This document shows positions 7,799-14,757 of a stretch of DNA of 64,000 bases, in pieces; the first letter of the stretch is position 1, and each line of letters opens with the position of its first letter. The notes beneath the pieces are model-generated. The model was not told the origin of the DNA. It was given only the letters and a program-made list of their open reading frames with translations, and ran no database searches. Source of the DNA: Methyloversatilis sp. XJ19-49 (lineage in GTDB: Bacteria > Pseudomonadota > Gammaproteobacteria > Burkholderiales > Rhodocyclaceae); assembly GCF_024580145.1 (NCBI RefSeq), contig NZ_JANINI010000008.1, forward strand, positions 62,001 to 126,000, in the 5' to 3' direction. The position numbers and the translations under genes were made by a program.

Positions 7799-8524
7799 TC
7801 AGAACATGACGGTCGTACGGACCCAGCCGTCCGGCAGCAGATTCAGTACAGCGGCTTCGAGCTGCTTGTCCCAGCCCATCAGCACCGCCAGACCCGCAAG
7901 CAGGATGAGCAGACCGAACCCCTTCTTGATGTGGTCGATGTGTGCCAGCACCCAATTACGCGACCGCATGAAGCCGGCCCGGGACGCATACGCGAAGCCG
8001 ACAAGCGGCGTTGCTGCGCCGAGGCCGAACAGGCCGAGTATCAATGCACCGCGTGCGGCGCCGCCTTCACTCGCGACCAGCGTCAGTGCCGAAGCCAGCA
8101 GCGGTCCGGAGCAGGGGCTCCACACCATGCCGAGTACCGCGCCGAGCAGAAAGCTGCCGCGCAGCGAGCCGGCATCGACGCGATTGCTCGCCTGCTGCGC
8201 AGTGGCGGCGATCGGACTCATCAGCAGACTGAAGCGGTCGCTCAGCGCCGGCACCAGCATGACGATGCCGAAGGCGATCAGCAGCCAGGCGCCGGCGGTG
8301 CGTATGAGATCGCCGTCCAGCCCGAGTGCATCGCCGAGCACGCCGACCAGCACGCCCAGCAGCGCAAACGACGCAACCATGCCGAGTCCCATCGCCACCG
8401 GTGCCAGACGGTTCGCCTGTACGGCACCGCCCACCACCAGCGGCAGAATGGGGAACACGCAGGGCGACAGGGTCGTCAGGCTGCCAGCAGCCAGCGCCAG
8501 GCCGAACTCGGCGGCGGAACTCAC
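7799..8524 (-). CDS. CcdA/DsbD-type transmembrane thiol-disulfide reductant carrier
   Basis: The 241-residue integral membrane protein has about six helices and two symmetric cysteine motifs: SLTTLSPCVFPILPL near the N-terminus and VWSPCSGPLLASAL at mid-protein. This arrangement is diagnostic of the CcdA family, where the cysteine pair carries electrons from cytoplasmic thioredoxin to the periplasm. It overlaps the upstream thioredoxin by ATGA and would re-reduce it. The pair could serve cytochrome c maturation, disulfide isomerisation or another periplasmic reductive step; the context does not decide which. Confidence 0.88.
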   Translation of the reverse strand: MSSAAEFGLALAAGSLTTLSPCVFPILPLVVGGAVQANRLAPVAMGLGMVASFALLGVLVGVLGDALGLDGDLIRTAGAWLLIAFGIVMLVPALSDRFSLLMSPIAATAQQASNRVDAGSLRGSFLLGAVLGMVWSPCSGPLLASALTLVASEGGAARGALILGLFGLGAATPLVGFAYASRAGFMRSRNWVLAHIDHIKKGFGLLILLAGLAVLMGWDKQLEAAVLNLLPDGWVRTTVMF

Positions 8525-8904
8525 AGACCGGCCTGCAGCGCGGCGCGGATCTTTTCGATGTCAGTGTCGCCGGCGAGTCGGGTTTTTTCCTGTTCGCCCT
8601 TGAATACGATCAGCACCGACTGGCTGCGCACCTTGTACTGCTTCTTCAGGTCCTTCTCTTCATCGTAATTGGCGATGAGAACGGTGATGTCCAGACCCTT
8701 TTCGGCCTTCAGCGCATTGAGTGCCTTCTCCTGCGTCTTGCAGGTGGAACACCATTCCGCGTGAAAGTGCACGGCCACCGGCTTGCCGGCCTGTTGTGCG
8801 GCGCCGAGTGCAGCCGCCGTATAGGGCTGGATATCGAGCGCATGGGCCAGACTGGCGGCGAGGGAAAGAGCGGCGATTGCGGTGAAGCGGATGAAGCGGT
8901 TCAT
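8521..8904 (-). CDS. Periplasmic thioredoxin-fold protein
   Basis: The 127-residue protein has a clear Sec signal (MNRFIRFTAIAALSLAASLAHA) and a thioredoxin domain with active site AEWCSTCKTQEKALN near residue 52. The later QSVLIVFKGEQE strand stands where the cis-proline loop normally is, here with Val-Leu and no obvious cis-Pro. It resembles the carboxy-terminal gamma domain of DsbD, split off as a separate protein and paired with the CcdA-like membrane carrier encoded immediately downstream. It is the first gene of a two-gene minus-strand operon. Confidence 0.87.
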   Translation of the reverse strand: MNRFIRFTAIAALSLAASLAHALDIQPYTAAALGAAQQAGKPVAVHFHAEWCSTCKTQEKALNALKAEKGLDITVLIANYDEEKDLKKQYKVRSQSVLIVFKGEQEKTRLAGDTDIEKIRAALQAGL

Positions 8905-9003: not shown

Positions 9004-10353
9004 TCAGGCAACTTCGCGCGTGCTCGAGCCGCTTTCCCGCTCGAGGCGAGCATCGTCGGCGTAGGGCACGGGCCAGCCCAGCATGCGGCTGGCGGCTTCG
9101 GCCCGTACCTGGAGTTGCGCTGCATCCGGCGCGCCCAGATGCACGATGCCGTAGCGGTGGCTGCCGGTCCATTTCAGATCGCGTCGCAGGCTGTATCCAC
9201 TGCGGCCGAAAGCGAAAAGCAGTCCGTCGGGAAAGTGCTGCTGCCAGGCGCTACGCAAAGTCCGGTCCGGCATGGCGGGCAGGCCGTCAGCGTCGAAGGC
9301 GCGATAGACGAGACTGGCAGCCGCGCAGGCGGTCGGATCTTCGCGGCGCAGCAGTCGCGGGTCTTCGCCGAGCGCCAGCGCCAGCGACCAGGCGTGCGCA
9401 TCGATGCCCTGAACGCGGCGATACAGATCCGAGAACTGCGAAGCCAGACGGGGATTGCATTCGATGACGGTCAGACGATCGGTAGCCGCGTCGTAGAAGA
9501 ATTCCAGATTGAAGAAACCGAGCGAATAGCCTATCGCGCCGAGAAAGCGCCGCGCGACGTCAAGTGCGCGCGCCTGCACCGATTCCGGCAGGCGACTCGG
9601 CACCTCCCAGCGCATGAAGGCCTGGGTGCCCGGATACATGATCGCGTCGACCACGCCCAGTGCATGCACCTGTCCGTCGAATACCCAGCCATCAAGGTTG
9701 AATTGCGGTGTGCCCGGATCGACCGGCGCTTCGAGCAGCAGGCGATGCGCGCTGCCAGCCTGCGGCAGCCGTGCCCGGCACACACGATCGAAGGGCTCGA
9801 CCAGATGCCGGATCACCCACAGCTCCCGCCAGTCGAATCGGGTATGTGCCTGCAGCGCTGCCCGACTGCCGACCTCGCGTGCGAGTACCGAAAAAGCCGC
9901 CTTGACCGGTTTTACATACACCGGATACTCGAACCCGCCGGGCAGATGTTCCGGGACTGGTTCGCCGTAATCCAGATCGAGCCCGGCAAAGGCCAGGCAG
10001 GCTTCGGGCGCAACGTTTTCGAGCACCCGTCTGGCATGCAGCTTGTGCTGCGCGGCCAGAATCGCCTCGGGTGGCACGCCGGGGAGGCCGAGTTGCTCAG
10101 CCACCATGGCGGCAGCCAGCGCGCCGAATGGTTCGTGATGCGACAGCACTGCCAACCATCCGCAACGCCTCGCGCGGTCGGCGGTACGGTCGGCGAATCG
10201 ATCGAAATCGAAACCGATCAGCCGCAGATTGTCCGGAAAGGAAAACAGGTCGAAACCTCCGCGGTAGAACTTGTGGCGCGAGGCGTGCCGCTCGAAGCCG
10301 ATGCGGTCCCAGTCGTAGGCGAAGAGCAGACCGATGCGGCGGATTGGGGGCAT
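9004..10353 (-). CDS. ATP-grasp domain protein of unknown substrate
   Basis: The 449-residue protein has an ATP-grasp layout. A pre-ATP-grasp N-terminal half (RRIGLLFAYDWDRIGFERHA...) is followed by YPVYVKPVKAAFSVLAREV (ATP-binding lysines) and later by FFNLEFFYDAATDRLTVIECNPRLASQFSDLY. In that last block E and N would bind Mg-ATP. Such enzymes join a carboxylate to an amine or thiol through an acyl phosphate. The ATG at 10353 removes about 360 antisense codons from the longer open frame. It is divergent from egtD, with 99 bases between the two starts, so co-regulation is plausible. I do not recognise the subfamily. Confidence 0.82.
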   Translation of the reverse strand: MPPIRRIGLLFAYDWDRIGFERHASRHKFYRGGFDLFSFPDNLRLIGFDFDRFADRTADRARRCGWLAVLSHHEPFGALAAAMVAEQLGLPGVPPEAILAAQHKLHARRVLENVAPEACLAFAGLDLDYGEPVPEHLPGGFEYPVYVKPVKAAFSVLAREVGSRAALQAHTRFDWRELWVIRHLVEPFDRVCRARLPQAGSAHRLLLEAPVDPGTPQFNLDGWVFDGQVHALGVVDAIMYPGTQAFMRWEVPSRLPESVQARALDVARRFLGAIGYSLGFFNLEFFYDAATDRLTVIECNPRLASQFSDLYRRVQGIDAHAWSLALALGEDPRLLRREDPTACAAASLVYRAFDADGLPAMPDRTLRSAWQQHFPDGLLFAFGRSGYSLRRDLKWTGSHRYGIVHLGAPDAAQLQVRAEAASRMLGWPVPYADDARLERESGSSTREVA

Positions 10354-10431
10354 TAATCGTCCAGTGAGCAGTGCGTGCGGCCAGCCGATGATGAAGGCGC
10401 AGCGTGCGATATGCTGCGCCCGACCGACAAA

Positions 10432-10437
10432 TATAAA
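10432..10437 (+). promoter_or_regulatory. Possible -10 element for egtD
   Basis: TATAAA lies 15 bases before the egtD ATG, in an otherwise GC-rich 99-base divergent region shared with the ATP-grasp gene. No convincing -35 is seen, and the implied leader would be very short. Confidence 0.3.
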
Positions 10438-10452
10438 GGCTGCGTTACGACC

Positions 10453-11421
10453 ATGATGCGAACACCGCGTTTCATCCAGTTGCAGCCGATCGACGATACC
10501 TTGCGGCTGGACGATGTGCTGGCCGGGCTGATGCAGCCCGTGGCGTCGGTGTCTCCCAAATACTTCTACGATGTGCTCGGTTCGCGTCTGTTCGAGGCGA
10601 TCACCGCGCTGGACGAGTACTACCCGACGCGCACCGAAGCGGCGATATTCGGCGCGCACGCGTCGGACATGGCACACCGCTTCCGCGCACATGCCGGCAC
10701 CGCCTTCGACCTGATCGATCTCGGTGCCGGCAGCTGTGCCAAGGCCGCAGCGCTTTTCGATGCCTTCGCACCGCGCCGCTATGTCGCGATCGACATTTCC
10801 GCCGATTTTCTCCGGCAGTCGATCGAATGTCTGCAGCGCGCGCATCCGGCAATGGACATGCTGGGTGTCGGCTGCGACTTTTCGGCCTGCCTTGATCTGC
10901 CGGATACCCTGTACGAAGGCCCTGCGCTGGTGTTCTACCCGGGTTCCAGCATCGGCAATTTCGCACCGCCGGATGCCCGTCGTCTGCTCGCCGAAGCCTG
11001 TACGGCCGCGCGTGGCGGTGGCCTGCTGATCGGGGTCGATCTGGTCAAGGACACTGCGGTGCTTGAAGCGGCATATGACGACGCGCTGGGTGTGACGGCG
11101 GCCTTCAACCTGAATGTGCTGCGTCACCTGAATCGCGTTGCGGGCACCGACTTCGACGTCTCTGGCTGGCGGCACGTCGCACGCTTCGACGGTGCGGCAT
11201 CGCGCATCGAAATGCATCTCGAGGCACGTCGTGCGGTGACCGTGCGCTGGTCGGGCGGCGAGCGGCGCTTTGCCGAAGGCGAGCGCATCCACACCGAAAA
11301 TTCGTACAAGTGGACACCGGCCACATTCGAGACGCTGCTGCACGAAGCCGGATTCTGCGAGGTGTCGTGCTGGATGGATGCGCAGGCCCGCTTCGGCGTC
11401 TTTCTGGCGCTGCCGGCGTGA
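10453..11421 (+). CDS. egtD: L-histidine N-alpha-methyltransferase (hercynine synthase)
   Basis: EgtD transfers three methyl groups from SAM to histidine, giving hercynine, the precursor of ergothioneine and selenoneine. From the ATG at 10453 the protein has 322 residues, the usual EgtD length. Signatures are KYFYDVLGSRLFEAITALDE, DLGAGSCAKA (SAM site), FYPGSSIGNF and HTENSYKW; the Glu/Ser in the last motif are the histidine-binding residues of this family. A second ATG follows three bases on. It converges on senA with a 9-base gap, and the only EgtB-type partner nearby is SenA, so hercynine is probably destined for selenoneine. Confidence 0.94.
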   Translation: MMRTPRFIQLQPIDDTLRLDDVLAGLMQPVASVSPKYFYDVLGSRLFEAITALDEYYPTRTEAAIFGAHASDMAHRFRAHAGTAFDLIDLGAGSCAKAAALFDAFAPRRYVAIDISADFLRQSIECLQRAHPAMDMLGVGCDFSACLDLPDTLYEGPALVFYPGSSIGNFAPPDARRLLAEACTAARGGGLLIGVDLVKDTAVLEAAYDDALGVTAAFNLNVLRHLNRVAGTDFDVSGWRHVARFDGAASRIEMHLEARRAVTVRWSGGERRFAEGERIHTENSYKWTPATFETLLHEAGFCEVSCWMDAQARFGVFLALPA

Positions 11422-11430
11422 GCCATGCAT

Positions 11431-12648
11431 TCAGCCCGCTGCACAGGTCCTGAAGCCGGCCGGCACGTCGTCGCGCTCCGGGCGGAAGAAGTTCCGGTAG
11501 CGCGGGTGATGCATGCGCGGCTGGGTCATGAACGACGCCCCGCGCAGCACGCGCCGGTCGCCGAACCAGGGCGCCGAATAGTCGCGATAGGGATGCGGCG
11601 TGAAGCCGGGGTAGGGCAGGAAGGTGCTGGCCGTCCATTCCCATACCTGCCCCCATTCGAATGCGGCAGGCTCGGCAACGGCAGCGCGCTCCCATTCCGC
11701 TTCGGTGGGCAGCCGCCGGCCGGCCCATCGGCACCACGCTTCGGCTTCGTAGGCGCTGACATGACTGACGGCATGATCCGGATCGATCTCGAACCAGCGG
11801 CCATACAGAAGCTGTTCCCAGCCACCCGCGTGCCGACGCAGATAGCGCGGATGCCGTCGGTCCTGAGCGGTCTTCCAGCGCCAGCCGGCATCGCTCCACC
11901 AGCGCGCGTCCTCATGCGCACCGCTGTCGACGAAGGGCAGGTAGTCCCGCCAGGTGACAACGGTCCGGTCGATTTCGCAGGCCGGCATGCCGACCGGGTG
12001 GGCCGCGCACTCGTTGTCGAAGGCAAAGCCGGTTCCGGAATGTCCGAGCATCCAGATGCTGGCTGGAAAGTGCAGGGCGTCGCCTGTCTGCCCACGTGCG
12101 ATAGCCACGGGCCGCCAGCGTGCGTCGTCGATTGCGATGCCGAGCTGCTGCGCCATGTACAACGCAGCTTCGTGATGCATGTCTTCGTGCAGCAGTGCGA
12201 GGCGAAAGAAATACAGCGCTTCATCGTGTTCGGGCGTCTGTTCGAGCAGCGCGATCACGTCATCGAGCTGGGTCTTCAGGTCGTCGAGCGTGGCGGCTGC
12301 GTCGGGCAGCGCAAGCCCCGGCCGCAGGGCATGCGCCACGCGACTCGAATCGAACAGTGCATCGGCGTCGGCGCGGGCGGCCGGCAGCCGTGCCGCGTCG
12401 GGATCGGCGCGCCAGCCGAGCGCGCGCTGCGGGTTGCGTGATGTCCACCAGGTCTGGAACCATCCGATGTGTCCCAGCTCCCACAGGGGCGGGTTCAGGG
12501 TTTCGTGAAACGGAATGCGCAGATCCGGAAAGGCACGCCGGTATTCGGCGAAGCGCGCCAGCGTGTCGGCACGACTGTCCTGCAGTGCCTGAATCAGCAG
12601 CGCCCTGCCGCCGTAGCGGGCGCCGGTCGATGACTGCACAACATTCAT
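11431..12648 (-). CDS. senA: Selenoneine synthase SenA (EgtB-family iron sulfoxide/selenoxide synthase)
   Basis: SenA is a non-heme iron enzyme that couples a selenosugar to hercynine with O2. The 405-residue protein has an N-terminal DinB-like domain whose candidate iron ligands are H60 (LWELGHIGW), H154 and H158 (LLHEDMHHEA). A formylglycine-generating-enzyme-like domain follows, with RRLPTEAEWERAA, GQVWEWTAS and RVLRGASF...RNFFRP. EgtB has the same plan. I prefer SenA because senB and selD are divergent neighbours and no egtA, egtC or egtE is present. The start MNVVQSS has a GGAG nine bases upstream; an earlier in-frame ATG (12663) overlaps the senB start. Confidence 0.87.
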   Translation of the reverse strand: MNVVQSSTGARYGGRALLIQALQDSRADTLARFAEYRRAFPDLRIPFHETLNPPLWELGHIGWFQTWWTSRNPQRALGWRADPDAARLPAARADADALFDSSRVAHALRPGLALPDAAATLDDLKTQLDDVIALLEQTPEHDEALYFFRLALLHEDMHHEAALYMAQQLGIAIDDARWRPVAIARGQTGDALHFPASIWMLGHSGTGFAFDNECAAHPVGMPACEIDRTVVTWRDYLPFVDSGAHEDARWWSDAGWRWKTAQDRRHPRYLRRHAGGWEQLLYGRWFEIDPDHAVSHVSAYEAEAWCRWAGRRLPTEAEWERAAVAEPAAFEWGQVWEWTASTFLPYPGFTPHPYRDYSAPWFGDRRVLRGASFMTQPRMHHPRYRNFFRPERDDVPAGFRTCAAG

Positions 12649-12661
12649 GACGGAAAGCTCC

Positions 12662-13654
12662 ATGTCGCGTCTCAAGATGGTGATCGTCACGCCGGCGCTG
12701 GCCGATGCCAACAACGGCAACTGGCGCACCGCGCGGCGTTGGGCGTCGATGCTGCGCGACCGTTGTGAGGTGCATCTGACCGGCGCGTGGAACGACGGTG
12801 ACGAAAGCGTGATGATCGCGCTGCACGCCCGCCGCTCTGCCGCGTCGGCTGCCGCGTGGCGCGCGCGCCATCCGGAGCGGCCGCTGATCGTCGTGCTGAC
12901 CGGTACCGATCTTTACCGGGATATCGCGACCGATGCGTCTGCCCGCCACTCGCTCGACATCGCCGACCGGCTGGTCGTGCTCAACGCGCTCGGTCCGCGC
13001 TCGCTGCCGGATTCGCTGAAGCCGCGCTGCCGCGTCGTGCTGCAGTCCTGTCCCTCGCGCATACGGCAGGCACCGCCGACGCGTTACCTGCGCGCGCTGA
13101 TGATAGGTCACCTGAGAGCCGAAAAGGCGCCGGACGTGCTGTTCGACGCCGTGCGCGAATTGGCGGCACGGTGCGATATCCGCATCGACCACATCGGCAG
13201 TGCGCTCGATCCGGAACTGGGCGAAGCGGCTGGCCACCTGATGGTCCAGTACCCCGCTTACCGCTGGCTGGGCGGGCTGTCGCATGACGCCACCCGTCGT
13301 CGCCTGCAGCGCGCCAGCGTGCTGGTACACCCGAGCCGCATGGAAGGCGGCGCGCACACGGTGATCGAGGCGATCCGCAGCGGCGTGCCCGTGCTGGCGT
13401 CGCGCATCGACGGCAATGTCGGCCTGCTCGGTGCGGATTACGATGGTTACTGTGCTCCGGGTGACGCACATGCGCTGGCAGCGCTTTTGGCACGTGCGCG
13501 CGACGACGCCGACTGGCTGGCGCATCTGGCGTACCAGTGCGACACGAAGGCAGCGCTTTTTTCGGCCCAACACGAACGCTCGGCGCTGCATGCGCTGATC
13601 GACGAATGTCTGGCATCCTTCGACGCACCCCCGACGGCAATGCCGTCCCGATGA
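12662..13654 (+). CDS. senB: Selenosugar synthase SenB (GT-B glycosyltransferase family)
   Basis: SenB is reported to displace the nucleotide of a UDP-sugar with selenophosphate-derived selenium, giving a 1-seleno-sugar. The 330-residue protein is a GT-B fold transferase. It begins KMVIVTPALADANNGNWRTA, has VVLTGTDLYRDI near residue 80, and ends with a nucleotide-sugar site, VLVHPSRMEGGAHTVIEA, then GVPVLASRIDGN. The start has GGAAAG upstream and overlaps the possible upstream senA start on the other strand. Its stop overlaps the selD ATG (ATGA), which couples selenophosphate supply to its use. This TIGR04348-type glycosyltransferase is characteristically found beside selD. Confidence 0.88.
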   Translation: MSRLKMVIVTPALADANNGNWRTARRWASMLRDRCEVHLTGAWNDGDESVMIALHARRSAASAAAWRARHPERPLIVVLTGTDLYRDIATDASARHSLDIADRLVVLNALGPRSLPDSLKPRCRVVLQSCPSRIRQAPPTRYLRALMIGHLRAEKAPDVLFDAVRELAARCDIRIDHIGSALDPELGEAAGHLMVQYPAYRWLGGLSHDATRRRLQRASVLVHPSRMEGGAHTVIEAIRSGVPVLASRIDGNVGLLGADYDGYCAPGDAHALAALLARARDDADWLAHLAYQCDTKAALFSAQHERSALHALIDECLASFDAPPTAMPSR

Positions 13655-14757
13655 ACCGCTTTCCCCTGGACTCCACCATGAGCACTGCACAGACATCCGC
13701 CACCGAGCCCCGCCTGACATCGCTATCGCACGGCGGTGGGTGTGGCTGCAAGATCGCGCCGGGCGTGCTGTCCGACATCCTGAAGGGCATGCCCGCGATG
13801 CCGATGCCGCGCGAACTGATGGTCGGCATCGAAACGGCCGATGACGCCGCCGTGTATCGCCTCAATGACGAACAGGCGCTGATTGCGACCACCGATTTCT
13901 TCATGCCCATCGTCGACGACCCGTACGACTTCGGACGCATCGCGGCGACCAATGCGATCAGCGATGTCTATGCCATGGGCGGGCGCCCCATCATGGCGCT
14001 GGCGCTGGTCGGCATGCCGATCAATGTGCTGTCGGTCGCGACCATCGGGCGCATCCTCGAAGGCGGCGCCAGCGTATGCCGCGACGCAGGCATCCCGGTG
14101 GCCGGCGGTCACACCATCGATTCGGTCGAAGCCATCTACGGGCTGGTTGCGCTGGGGCTGGTTCACCCGGAGCGCGTACGCCGCAACGCCGATGCCCGAC
14201 CGGGCGACGTGCTGGTGCTGGGCAAGCCGCTGGGCGTCGGCGTCATGTCGGCTGCGCTGAAGAAGGGCGCACTCGACGACGCGGGCTACGCGCAGATGAT
14301 CGCGACCACGACGAAGCTGAATACGCCGGGCCCTGATCTGGCGGCGCTGCCGGGCGTGCATGCACTGACCGATGTGACCGGCTTTGGTCTGGCCGGTCAT
14401 GCGCTGGAACTGGCGCGTGGTGCGAAATGCGATGTGCGCATCGACTGGTCGGCCGTGCCTTTGCTCGGCGGTGTGCGTGCGCTGGCGCAGGGCGGCTTCG
14501 TCACCGGCGCTTCGGGTCGCAACTGGGGGGGCTACGGCGCGCACGTCGGGCTGCCCGACGACTTTGCCGCAGAGGACAAGGCCTTGCTGACGGATCCCCA
14601 GACCAGCGGCGGTCTGCTCGTATCATGCGATCCAGCCAGTGTCGGCGCCGTCCTGGCCATCTTCCGCGATCACGGATTCGGACAGGCAGCAGTCGTCGGC
14701 GAGGTGCTGGTGGCCGCTGGCGCGAGCGCGCAGCTTCGGGTACGCGTATCGCATTGA
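13651..14757 (+). CDS. selD: Selenophosphate synthetase (SelD/SenC)
   Basis: SelD makes selenophosphate from selenide and ATP. The 368-residue protein carries the N-terminal HGGGCGCKIAP motif; C31 and K34 match the catalytic Cys17 and Lys20 of the E. coli enzyme, so cysteine rather than selenocysteine is used. TADDAAVY and TTDFFMPIVDDPYDFG bind ATP and metal, and DVTGFGLAGHALE and LTDPQTSGGLL are family signatures. The ATGA overlap with senB argues for the start at 13651; an alternative ATG lies at 13678. In this position it is the SenC of selenoneine synthesis. It could also serve selenouridine or selenocysteine pathways if those exist elsewhere. Confidence 0.94.
   Translation: MNRFPLDSTMSTAQTSATEPRLTSLSHGGGCGCKIAPGVLSDILKGMPAMPMPRELMVGIETADDAAVYRLNDEQALIATTDFFMPIVDDPYDFGRIAATNAISDVYAMGGRPIMALALVGMPINVLSVATIGRILEGGASVCRDAGIPVAGGHTIDSVEAIYGLVALGLVHPERVRRNADARPGDVLVLGKPLGVGVMSAALKKGALDDAGYAQMIATTTKLNTPGPDLAALPGVHALTDVTGFGLAGHALELARGAKCDVRIDWSAVPLLGGVRALAQGGFVTGASGRNWGGYGAHVGLPDDFAAEDKALLTDPQTSGGLLVSCDPASVGAVLAIFRDHGFGQAAVVGEVLVAAGASAQLRVRVSH

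Follow-up and report, generated by a model that had tools for sequence, protein, structure and literature searches.

The window analysed here, a stretch of 64,000 nucleotides from Methyloversatilis sp. XJ19-49 (bases 62001-126000 of contig C44 in the source genome G000, 4.10 megabases in 45 contigs), probably carries a selenoneine biosynthesis locus, a reading to which we assign a probability of about 0.9, with the Sen steps predicted from family membership. An earlier note on this DNA had placed egtD, senA, senB and selD at positions 10453-14757, and all four genes were confirmed there. The locus so delimited was one gene short: a divergent gene of the ATP-grasp type (9004-10353) lies 99 base pairs (bp) from egtD, and in a sample of genomes from the order its occurrence is associated with that of SenB. 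Somewhat better than even chances are given to the view that this ligase has any part in selenium or selenoneine metabolism. The features of the locus are the following.

9004..10353, minus strand: ATP-grasp ligase gene (P0001), 449 amino acids when read from the ATG at 10353; egtD and this gene are divergent.
10354..10452: intergenic region of 99 bp between the ligase gene and egtD, by its position the expected promoter site for both genes.
10453..11421, plus strand: egtD, predicted histidine N-alpha-trimethyltransferase (hercynine-forming); TIGR03438, PDB 4pim.
11431..12648, minus strand: senA, predicted iron-dependent selenoneine synthase; NF041186, PDB 8ryz/8k5i, position in the tree, H60/H154/H158.
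12649..12661: gap of 13 bp separating the start codons of the divergent genes senA and senB, provided that 12662 is the start of senB.
12662..13654, plus strand: senB, predicted selenosugar synthase (Se-glycosyltransferase); TIGR04348, PDB 8k5u and 8fbx, key residues.
13651..14757, plus strand: selD/senC, predicted selenophosphate synthetase; NF002098 and TIGR00476, sole copy found in the genome.

In the proposed route, EgtD would trimethylate histidine to hercynine, SelD would form selenophosphate from selenide and ATP, and SenB would join selenium to the sugar of a uridine diphosphate (UDP)-sugar, giving a 1-selenosugar. The non-haem iron enzyme SenA would couple the selenosugar oxidatively to hercynine; afterwards the selenoxide would break down with loss of the sugar, and a reduction would yield selenoneine. 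The Sen steps have been shown with the Variovorax enzymes (PMC9814287, PMC10891094, PMC10702425). The identities and the pathway given in the earlier note were upheld: all four products scored above the cut-offs of their curated families, with E-values of 1e-108 to 1e-159, and the best structural matches of SenA and SenB were solved Sen enzymes. Ratios of nonsynonymous to synonymous substitutions (dN/dS) against three Methyloversatilis loci were 0.07-0.34 across egtD, senA, senB, selD and the ATP-grasp gene, and all genes of the locus are under purifying selection. The four frames are more than chance open reading frames (ORFs), given the E-values and the low dN/dS.

EgtD clears its cut-off by 71 bits (TIGR03438, 361.6 bits, cut-off 290.9) and thereby provides a predicted hercynine source within the locus. 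Its top match in the PDB is EgtD 4pim (1.2e-54), and the motif ENSYKW, which had been noticed before, is present and aligns to EVSCKF. SenA reached 508.7 bits with NF041186 (cut-off 420, 89 above), and its best matches in the PDB were the selenoneine synthase structures 8ryz/8k5i (about 1e-122); the histidines H60, H154 and H158 carry exactly the numbers reported earlier, counted from the ATG at 12648. In a tree of 75 SenA-like proteins, a check that had been proposed with the original observation, the window SenA grouped with three Methyloversatilis proteins (support 100/99) inside the clade to which the solved SenA 8k5i belongs (support 98/96). Outside this clade were OvsA and OvoA, on long branches and with their own placement unsure, and seven distant second copies (28-34 % identical) that were taken for EgtB-like proteins. 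An identity of SenA as EgtB was ruled out by the tree position and by the score with the EgtB model TIGR03440 (239.6 bits, below the cut-off of 360).

SenB exceeded the cut-off of TIGR04348 by 119 bits (419.2 bits, cut-off 300), and its top matches in the PDB are solved Se-glycosyltransferases (8k5u, 4.9e-99; 8fbx, 5.2e-96; also 8jjq). N20, T23, K158 and E231 are named as key residues, together with a conserved motif EGGAHV, in PMC10891094. The window SenB has N20 and T23 under the same numbers, its K155 and E228 align with K158 and E231, and the motif reads EGGAHT. SelD scored 530.1 bits with NF002098 (cut-off 299, 231 above) and 421.9 bits with TIGR00476, and the CGCK described for it is part of GGGCGCK. 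Its gene overlaps or directly follows senB: the letters of the proposed ATGA overlap are present at 13651-13654, while their use as a start is open to the in-frame alternative at 13678.

The arrangement is a common one among relatives. A class sample of 369 genomes contained 23 with a SenB above the cut-off, and in the order sample 124 of the 399 genomes had a SenB match at 1e-30. Gene orders were counted in named loci, which are the best 80 of 304 matches to the window SenB and biased towards its relatives; the set may lack records that are very close to the window, and its nearest named relatives by SenB are three metagenome-assembled genomes (MAGs) of Methyloversatilis with 90, 88 and 71 % identity. 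Sixty-three of the 80 loci extended 5 kilobases (kb) or more upstream and 1.5 kb or more downstream of senB, and their figures describe the kin of the window locus, not sen loci at large. Thirty had the exact order egtD+ senA- senB+ selD+, 33 had egtD+ senA- senB+, and in 52 senA and senB stood head to head. Thus egtD lies inside the locus, as had been emphasised, and this is not special. The expectation that a routine annotation would miss SenA and SenB did not hold, for NCBI equivalog models name both. Since the same order recurs in 30 of 63 loci and these models already exist, the pathway is not new in itself; the locus is a well-supported, ordinary new member. With it, a Methyloversatilis relative joins the likely makers of selenoneine, a compound whose physiological roles are described in PMC10891094 as little known beyond antioxidant action and mercury protection.

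The product of the divergent gene, P0001, has homologues at the same place in the three Methyloversatilis loci (89, 91 and 75 % identity; dN/dS 0.12-0.16, purifying selection). No Pfam family matched it above the cut-off, and matches to NCBIfam were weak only. The best of five AlphaFold2 models, built with 12 sequences, had a predicted local distance difference test score (pLDDT) of 83.3 and a predicted template modelling score (pTM) of 0.87. With this model the L-amino acid ligase 3vot was the best match both in Foldseek (8.3e-18, template modelling score 0.67 by query length) and in VIA-align (Z 28.1 over 372 residues, root mean square deviation 3.5, 17 % identity). An alignment of 51 sequences contained 58 positions conserved to at least 95 %, among them K104, K148, E284, E298, N300, P301 and R302. 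K104, K148, E284, E298 and N300 are presumably the conserved lysines and the magnesium-binding glutamates and asparagine of the ATP-grasp superfamily, and the motif E-x-N-P-R is typical of ATP-grasp enzymes. Judged by fold matches and conserved residues, P0001 is a predicted member of this superfamily and, as modelled, an uncharacterised ligase resembling L-amino acid ligases.

In the order sample the ligase was matched at a cut-off of 1e-10 in 44 genomes. SenB was present in 42 of these, compared with 124 of 399 overall (Fisher's exact test, 9.7e-22). Among the 182 EgtD-positive genomes, SenB was found in 42 of 43 with the ligase versus 61 of 139 without it (1.4e-11), and only one of the 79 EgtD-positive, SenB-negative genomes had the ligase. 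In that genome (G425) senA is located at a contig edge (C44:152-1210 of G425) and a divergent senB would fall past the end, so that a contig break seems to explain the exception. In G668, the second exception, the ligase match was partial (30 % identity) and looks like a distant paralog. A phylum sample of 160 genomes, searched at E <= 1e-40, returned, besides the source genome, three partial matches scoring 153-179 bits; like the one in G668, they resemble paralogs. When the ligase labels of the EgtD-positive genomes were shuffled within GTDB families, 106 of 20,000 shufflings reached 42, with a mean of 38.0 of 43. The association of ligase and SenB therefore stands at a p of about 0.005, and most of the raw signal lies at the family level.

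SenA was checked in 80 genomes, which comprised all 44 ligase genomes and 36 of the 82 SenB-positive genomes without ligase, the latter hand-picked and not random. In all 43 ligase genomes other than G668 the SenA-like match was at least as strong as 1.1e-98; among the 36 ligase-free genomes, seven had no SenA match at 1e-40 and two had a weak one only. Fisher's exact test on 43/0 versus 29/7 gave a p of 0.003, with G382 and G395, whose matches were of OvoA strength only, counted as positive. Within the genus g330, the ligase occurs in both sampled members that have a SenA-like match and is missing from the one that has none.

A serious contender, not far short of an even chance, is that the ATP-grasp gene is a passenger which has a lineage history in common with the sen genes and acts in an unrelated metabolism. 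Several findings speak for such a passenger and against a pathway role of the ligase, or weaken the ligase assignment itself. The raw co-occurrence values count related genomes as independent, and about 0.005 is what remains after stratification by family, with the shuffled mean already close to the observed count. Eighty-two of the 124 SenB-positive genomes have no ligase; the ligase is therefore not needed for selenoneine. The contrast in SenA fades at the curated cut-off: 33 of the 43 genomes with the ligase pass it, and so do 25 of the 36 checked genomes without. The surroundings of the ligase were inspected in 45 stretches from all 44 ligase genomes, some of them shortened by contig ends, and in 34 genomes the fetched stretch held neither egtD nor a sen gene. 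Judged by eye, the ORF clusters of these stretches consisted of the ligase, egtD and sen genes, antisense frames and clusters resembling lineage synteny, and no conserved partner gene beyond egtD and the sen genes was recognised. Two genomes (G413, locus L196; G544, locus L197) have the ligase frame split in two, which may be decay or a sequencing error. Regarding the fold, the other four models had a pLDDT of 77.2 to 58.0, so that confidence varies between models, PurK followed 3vot with a Z of 26.2, a margin of just 1.9, and the sequence identity to 3vot is as low as 17 %.

Against a passenger stands the linkage in the remaining ten ligase genomes, which belong to seven GTDB families and show differing orientations. 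The fetched stretch contained egtD, senA, senB and selD in three of them (G000, G629, G371), egtD and senA in another three (G467, G544, G575), senA alone in G752, senA and senB in G540, senB and selD in G636, and senA-senB-selD at a distance of 8.6 kb in G701. Moreover, the order sample shows no close homologue in a genome clearly devoid of sen genes, and the source genome has retained the ligase without the transporter treated below: no TIGR04553 protein, whose operon elsewhere lies between ligase and egtD, was found there, and this supports a pathway role.

If the ligase does act on the pathway, it could make a conjugate of selenoneine or hercynine. As an undescribed tailoring enzyme it would couple, at the expense of ATP, the carboxylate of selenoneine or of its precursor hercynine to an amino acid or another amine; only the carboxylate of these compounds would be usable, because their amine is trimethylated. 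The formation of an amide between carboxylate and amine is suggested by fold and distribution, and the proposal is a tentative one that we regard as possible but rather doubtful. Were it true, 42 of the 124 SenB-positive genomes of the order sample, about a third, would be the source of a selenoneine conjugate for which nobody has looked so far. If the ligase belongs to the pathway, selenoneine would not always be the end product.

Transporter genes accompany the ligase in a part of the loci. Fifty-three named loci reached 7.9 kb or more upstream and 1.5 kb or more downstream of senB; the ligase was present in 12, a PhnD-type transporter protein in 32 and both in nine. In eight loci the ligase is the final gene in a series of PhnD/C/E-type transporter genes that share its strand, and in the ninth it adjoins such genes on the opposite strand. 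In a Rubrivivax MAG (L101) the substrate-binding protein passes TIGR04553 (360 bits, cut-off 250), the NCBI family of a 'putative selenate' transporter, and the ligase closes the series. This transporter of L101 (L101:1919-5460) is a PhnD/C/E-type ATP-binding cassette transporter, and PhnD-type genes are located near egtD or senA in most of these 53 relatives. These neighbourhoods would suit an ATP-grasp enzyme acting on the selenium supply, together with the putative selenate transporter, and not on selenoneine. We consider this improbable: the source genome has the ligase standing alone beside egtD and no match to TIGR04553, the family was absent above its cut-off from 11 of the 28 ligase genomes (of 44) included in a check of 48 genomes, and in one genus four genomes negative for SenB (G476, G583, G672, G728) possess TIGR04553 and lack the ligase. 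The putative selenate transporter as cause of the ligase association is likewise not supported by the TIGR04553 distribution.

The gene inventory of the source genome bears on the core pathway as well. One SelD was found at E <= 1e-30 and one tRNA selenouridine synthase (SelU), while SelA had no match at E <= 1e-10. A dedicated SenC beside a separate housekeeping SelD is thus ruled out by the single SelD in the genome. The former view of this SelD as SenC rather than a housekeeping enzyme has to be corrected: being the only SelD found in a genome that also encodes SelU, it would be the housekeeping SelD too, and by gene content it must feed both the selenoneine route and tRNA selenouridine synthase, one SelD for two products. 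Neither the FGE-sulfatase model (E <= 0.001) nor the SenA model (E <= 1e-40) revealed a separate EgtB in the source genome, which leaves hercynine without a visible EgtB-type outlet. The sole other match to these models was a full-length OvoA of 711 amino acids (L001:898-3033, on contig C1 of G000 at about 366-370 kb; 677 and 339.6 bits with two OvoA models). The source genome may hence make histidine-derived antioxidants with both selenium and sulfur (ovothiol). Genes for egtA, egtC and egtE are absent from the locus, as had been stated; a genome-wide search for them was not made. Very improbable is a locus that mainly yields ergothioneine or a mixture, with SenA accepting a sulfur donor as EgtB does, and with SelD serving only tRNA selenouridine: the relatedness of SenA to EgtB (239.6 bits with TIGR03440) and the other task that SelU offers to SelD would fit, but SenA stays below the EgtB cut-off of 360, surpasses its own and sits in the SenA clade, and the adjoining SenB is a predicted dedicated Se-glycosyltransferase with its key residues kept.

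For senB, 12647 and 12662 are candidate starts, and the alignment to the solved chains favours 12662. The starts of senA and senB are on opposite strands and 13 bp apart or overlapping, with no room for a promoter between them (window 12630-12690); with the start at 12662, the promoters of senA and senB would lie inside each other's gene or farther off. No sigma-70-like promoter was detected in the 99-bp gap between ligase and egtD, and the sole match was inside the ligase gene (0.6 expected by shuffling). Two terminator-like matches compare with 3.0 expected. A tRNA gene located 3' of selD was the sole Rfam match. Beside the ATP-grasp gene, on the minus strand of the window at 7799-8904, are a weakly matching DsbD-like protein and a weakly matching thioredoxin-like protein, both below curated cut-offs.

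Other loci differed in gene content. A senB without senA was seen in the fetched flanks, some of which are short, of L116, L120, L123, L125, L140 and L143, where egtD is directly 5' of senB on the same strand (L116 is Curvibacter delicatus), and of L072, L073, L080, L083, L086, L088, L122 and L139. At the level of whole genomes, the seven of 36 checked SenB-positive, ligase-free genomes without a SenA match are of the same kind. The selenosugar may have another use in such loci, in which no common replacement gene was apparent by eye. In L091, L119, L124, L129, L130, L134 and L138 the selD near senB encodes a protein only 32-36 % identical to the window SelD and is situated about 1.2 kb farther on. 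By sequence, two unlike SelD types occur at sen loci.

A literature search for a link of an ATP-grasp ligase with selenoneine, ergothioneine or the selenium glycosyltransferase found none, the papers that came up for ergothioneine and for selenium with glycosyltransferase being unrelated by title and abstract; neither the founding paper of 2022 nor the ovoselenol paper of 2024 was within the search. A genomic search for new selenium genes from 2015 names YedE, YedF, a LysR-like factor and DUF3343, and the accessible part of this report lists no ATP-grasp protein among its named selenium genes (PMC5322559). The sen locus with an extra ligase is thus a variant that was not found described in the searchable literature, to which the founding 2022 paper does not belong.

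Among the known systems, the L-amino acid ligases (BL00235/3vot, YwfE/BacD and RizA) share with the window ligase the whole-length fold and the E-x-N-P-R motif; the window ligase differs from them by an identity of only 12-17 % and has no Pfam family above cut-off. OvsA and OvoA, of ovoselenol and ovothiol synthesis, are iron enzymes related to SenA, yet fall outside its clade on long branches. The Rubrivivax MAG L101, also of the Burkholderiales, has the order egtD-senA-senB-selD and the ATP-grasp gene as in the window, but four transporter genes, including that of the TIGR04553 substrate-binding protein, lie between the ATP-grasp gene and egtD, and the source genome has no TIGR04553 match. 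The sen cluster of Variovorax paradoxus DSM 30034, reportedly the subject of Kayrouz et al. 2022, comprises with SenA, SenB and SenC the same three enzyme families as the window locus. Compared with this cluster, described as one of three genes in PMC9814287, PMC10891094 and PMC10702425, the window locus adds egtD within the block and the divergent ATP-grasp gene.

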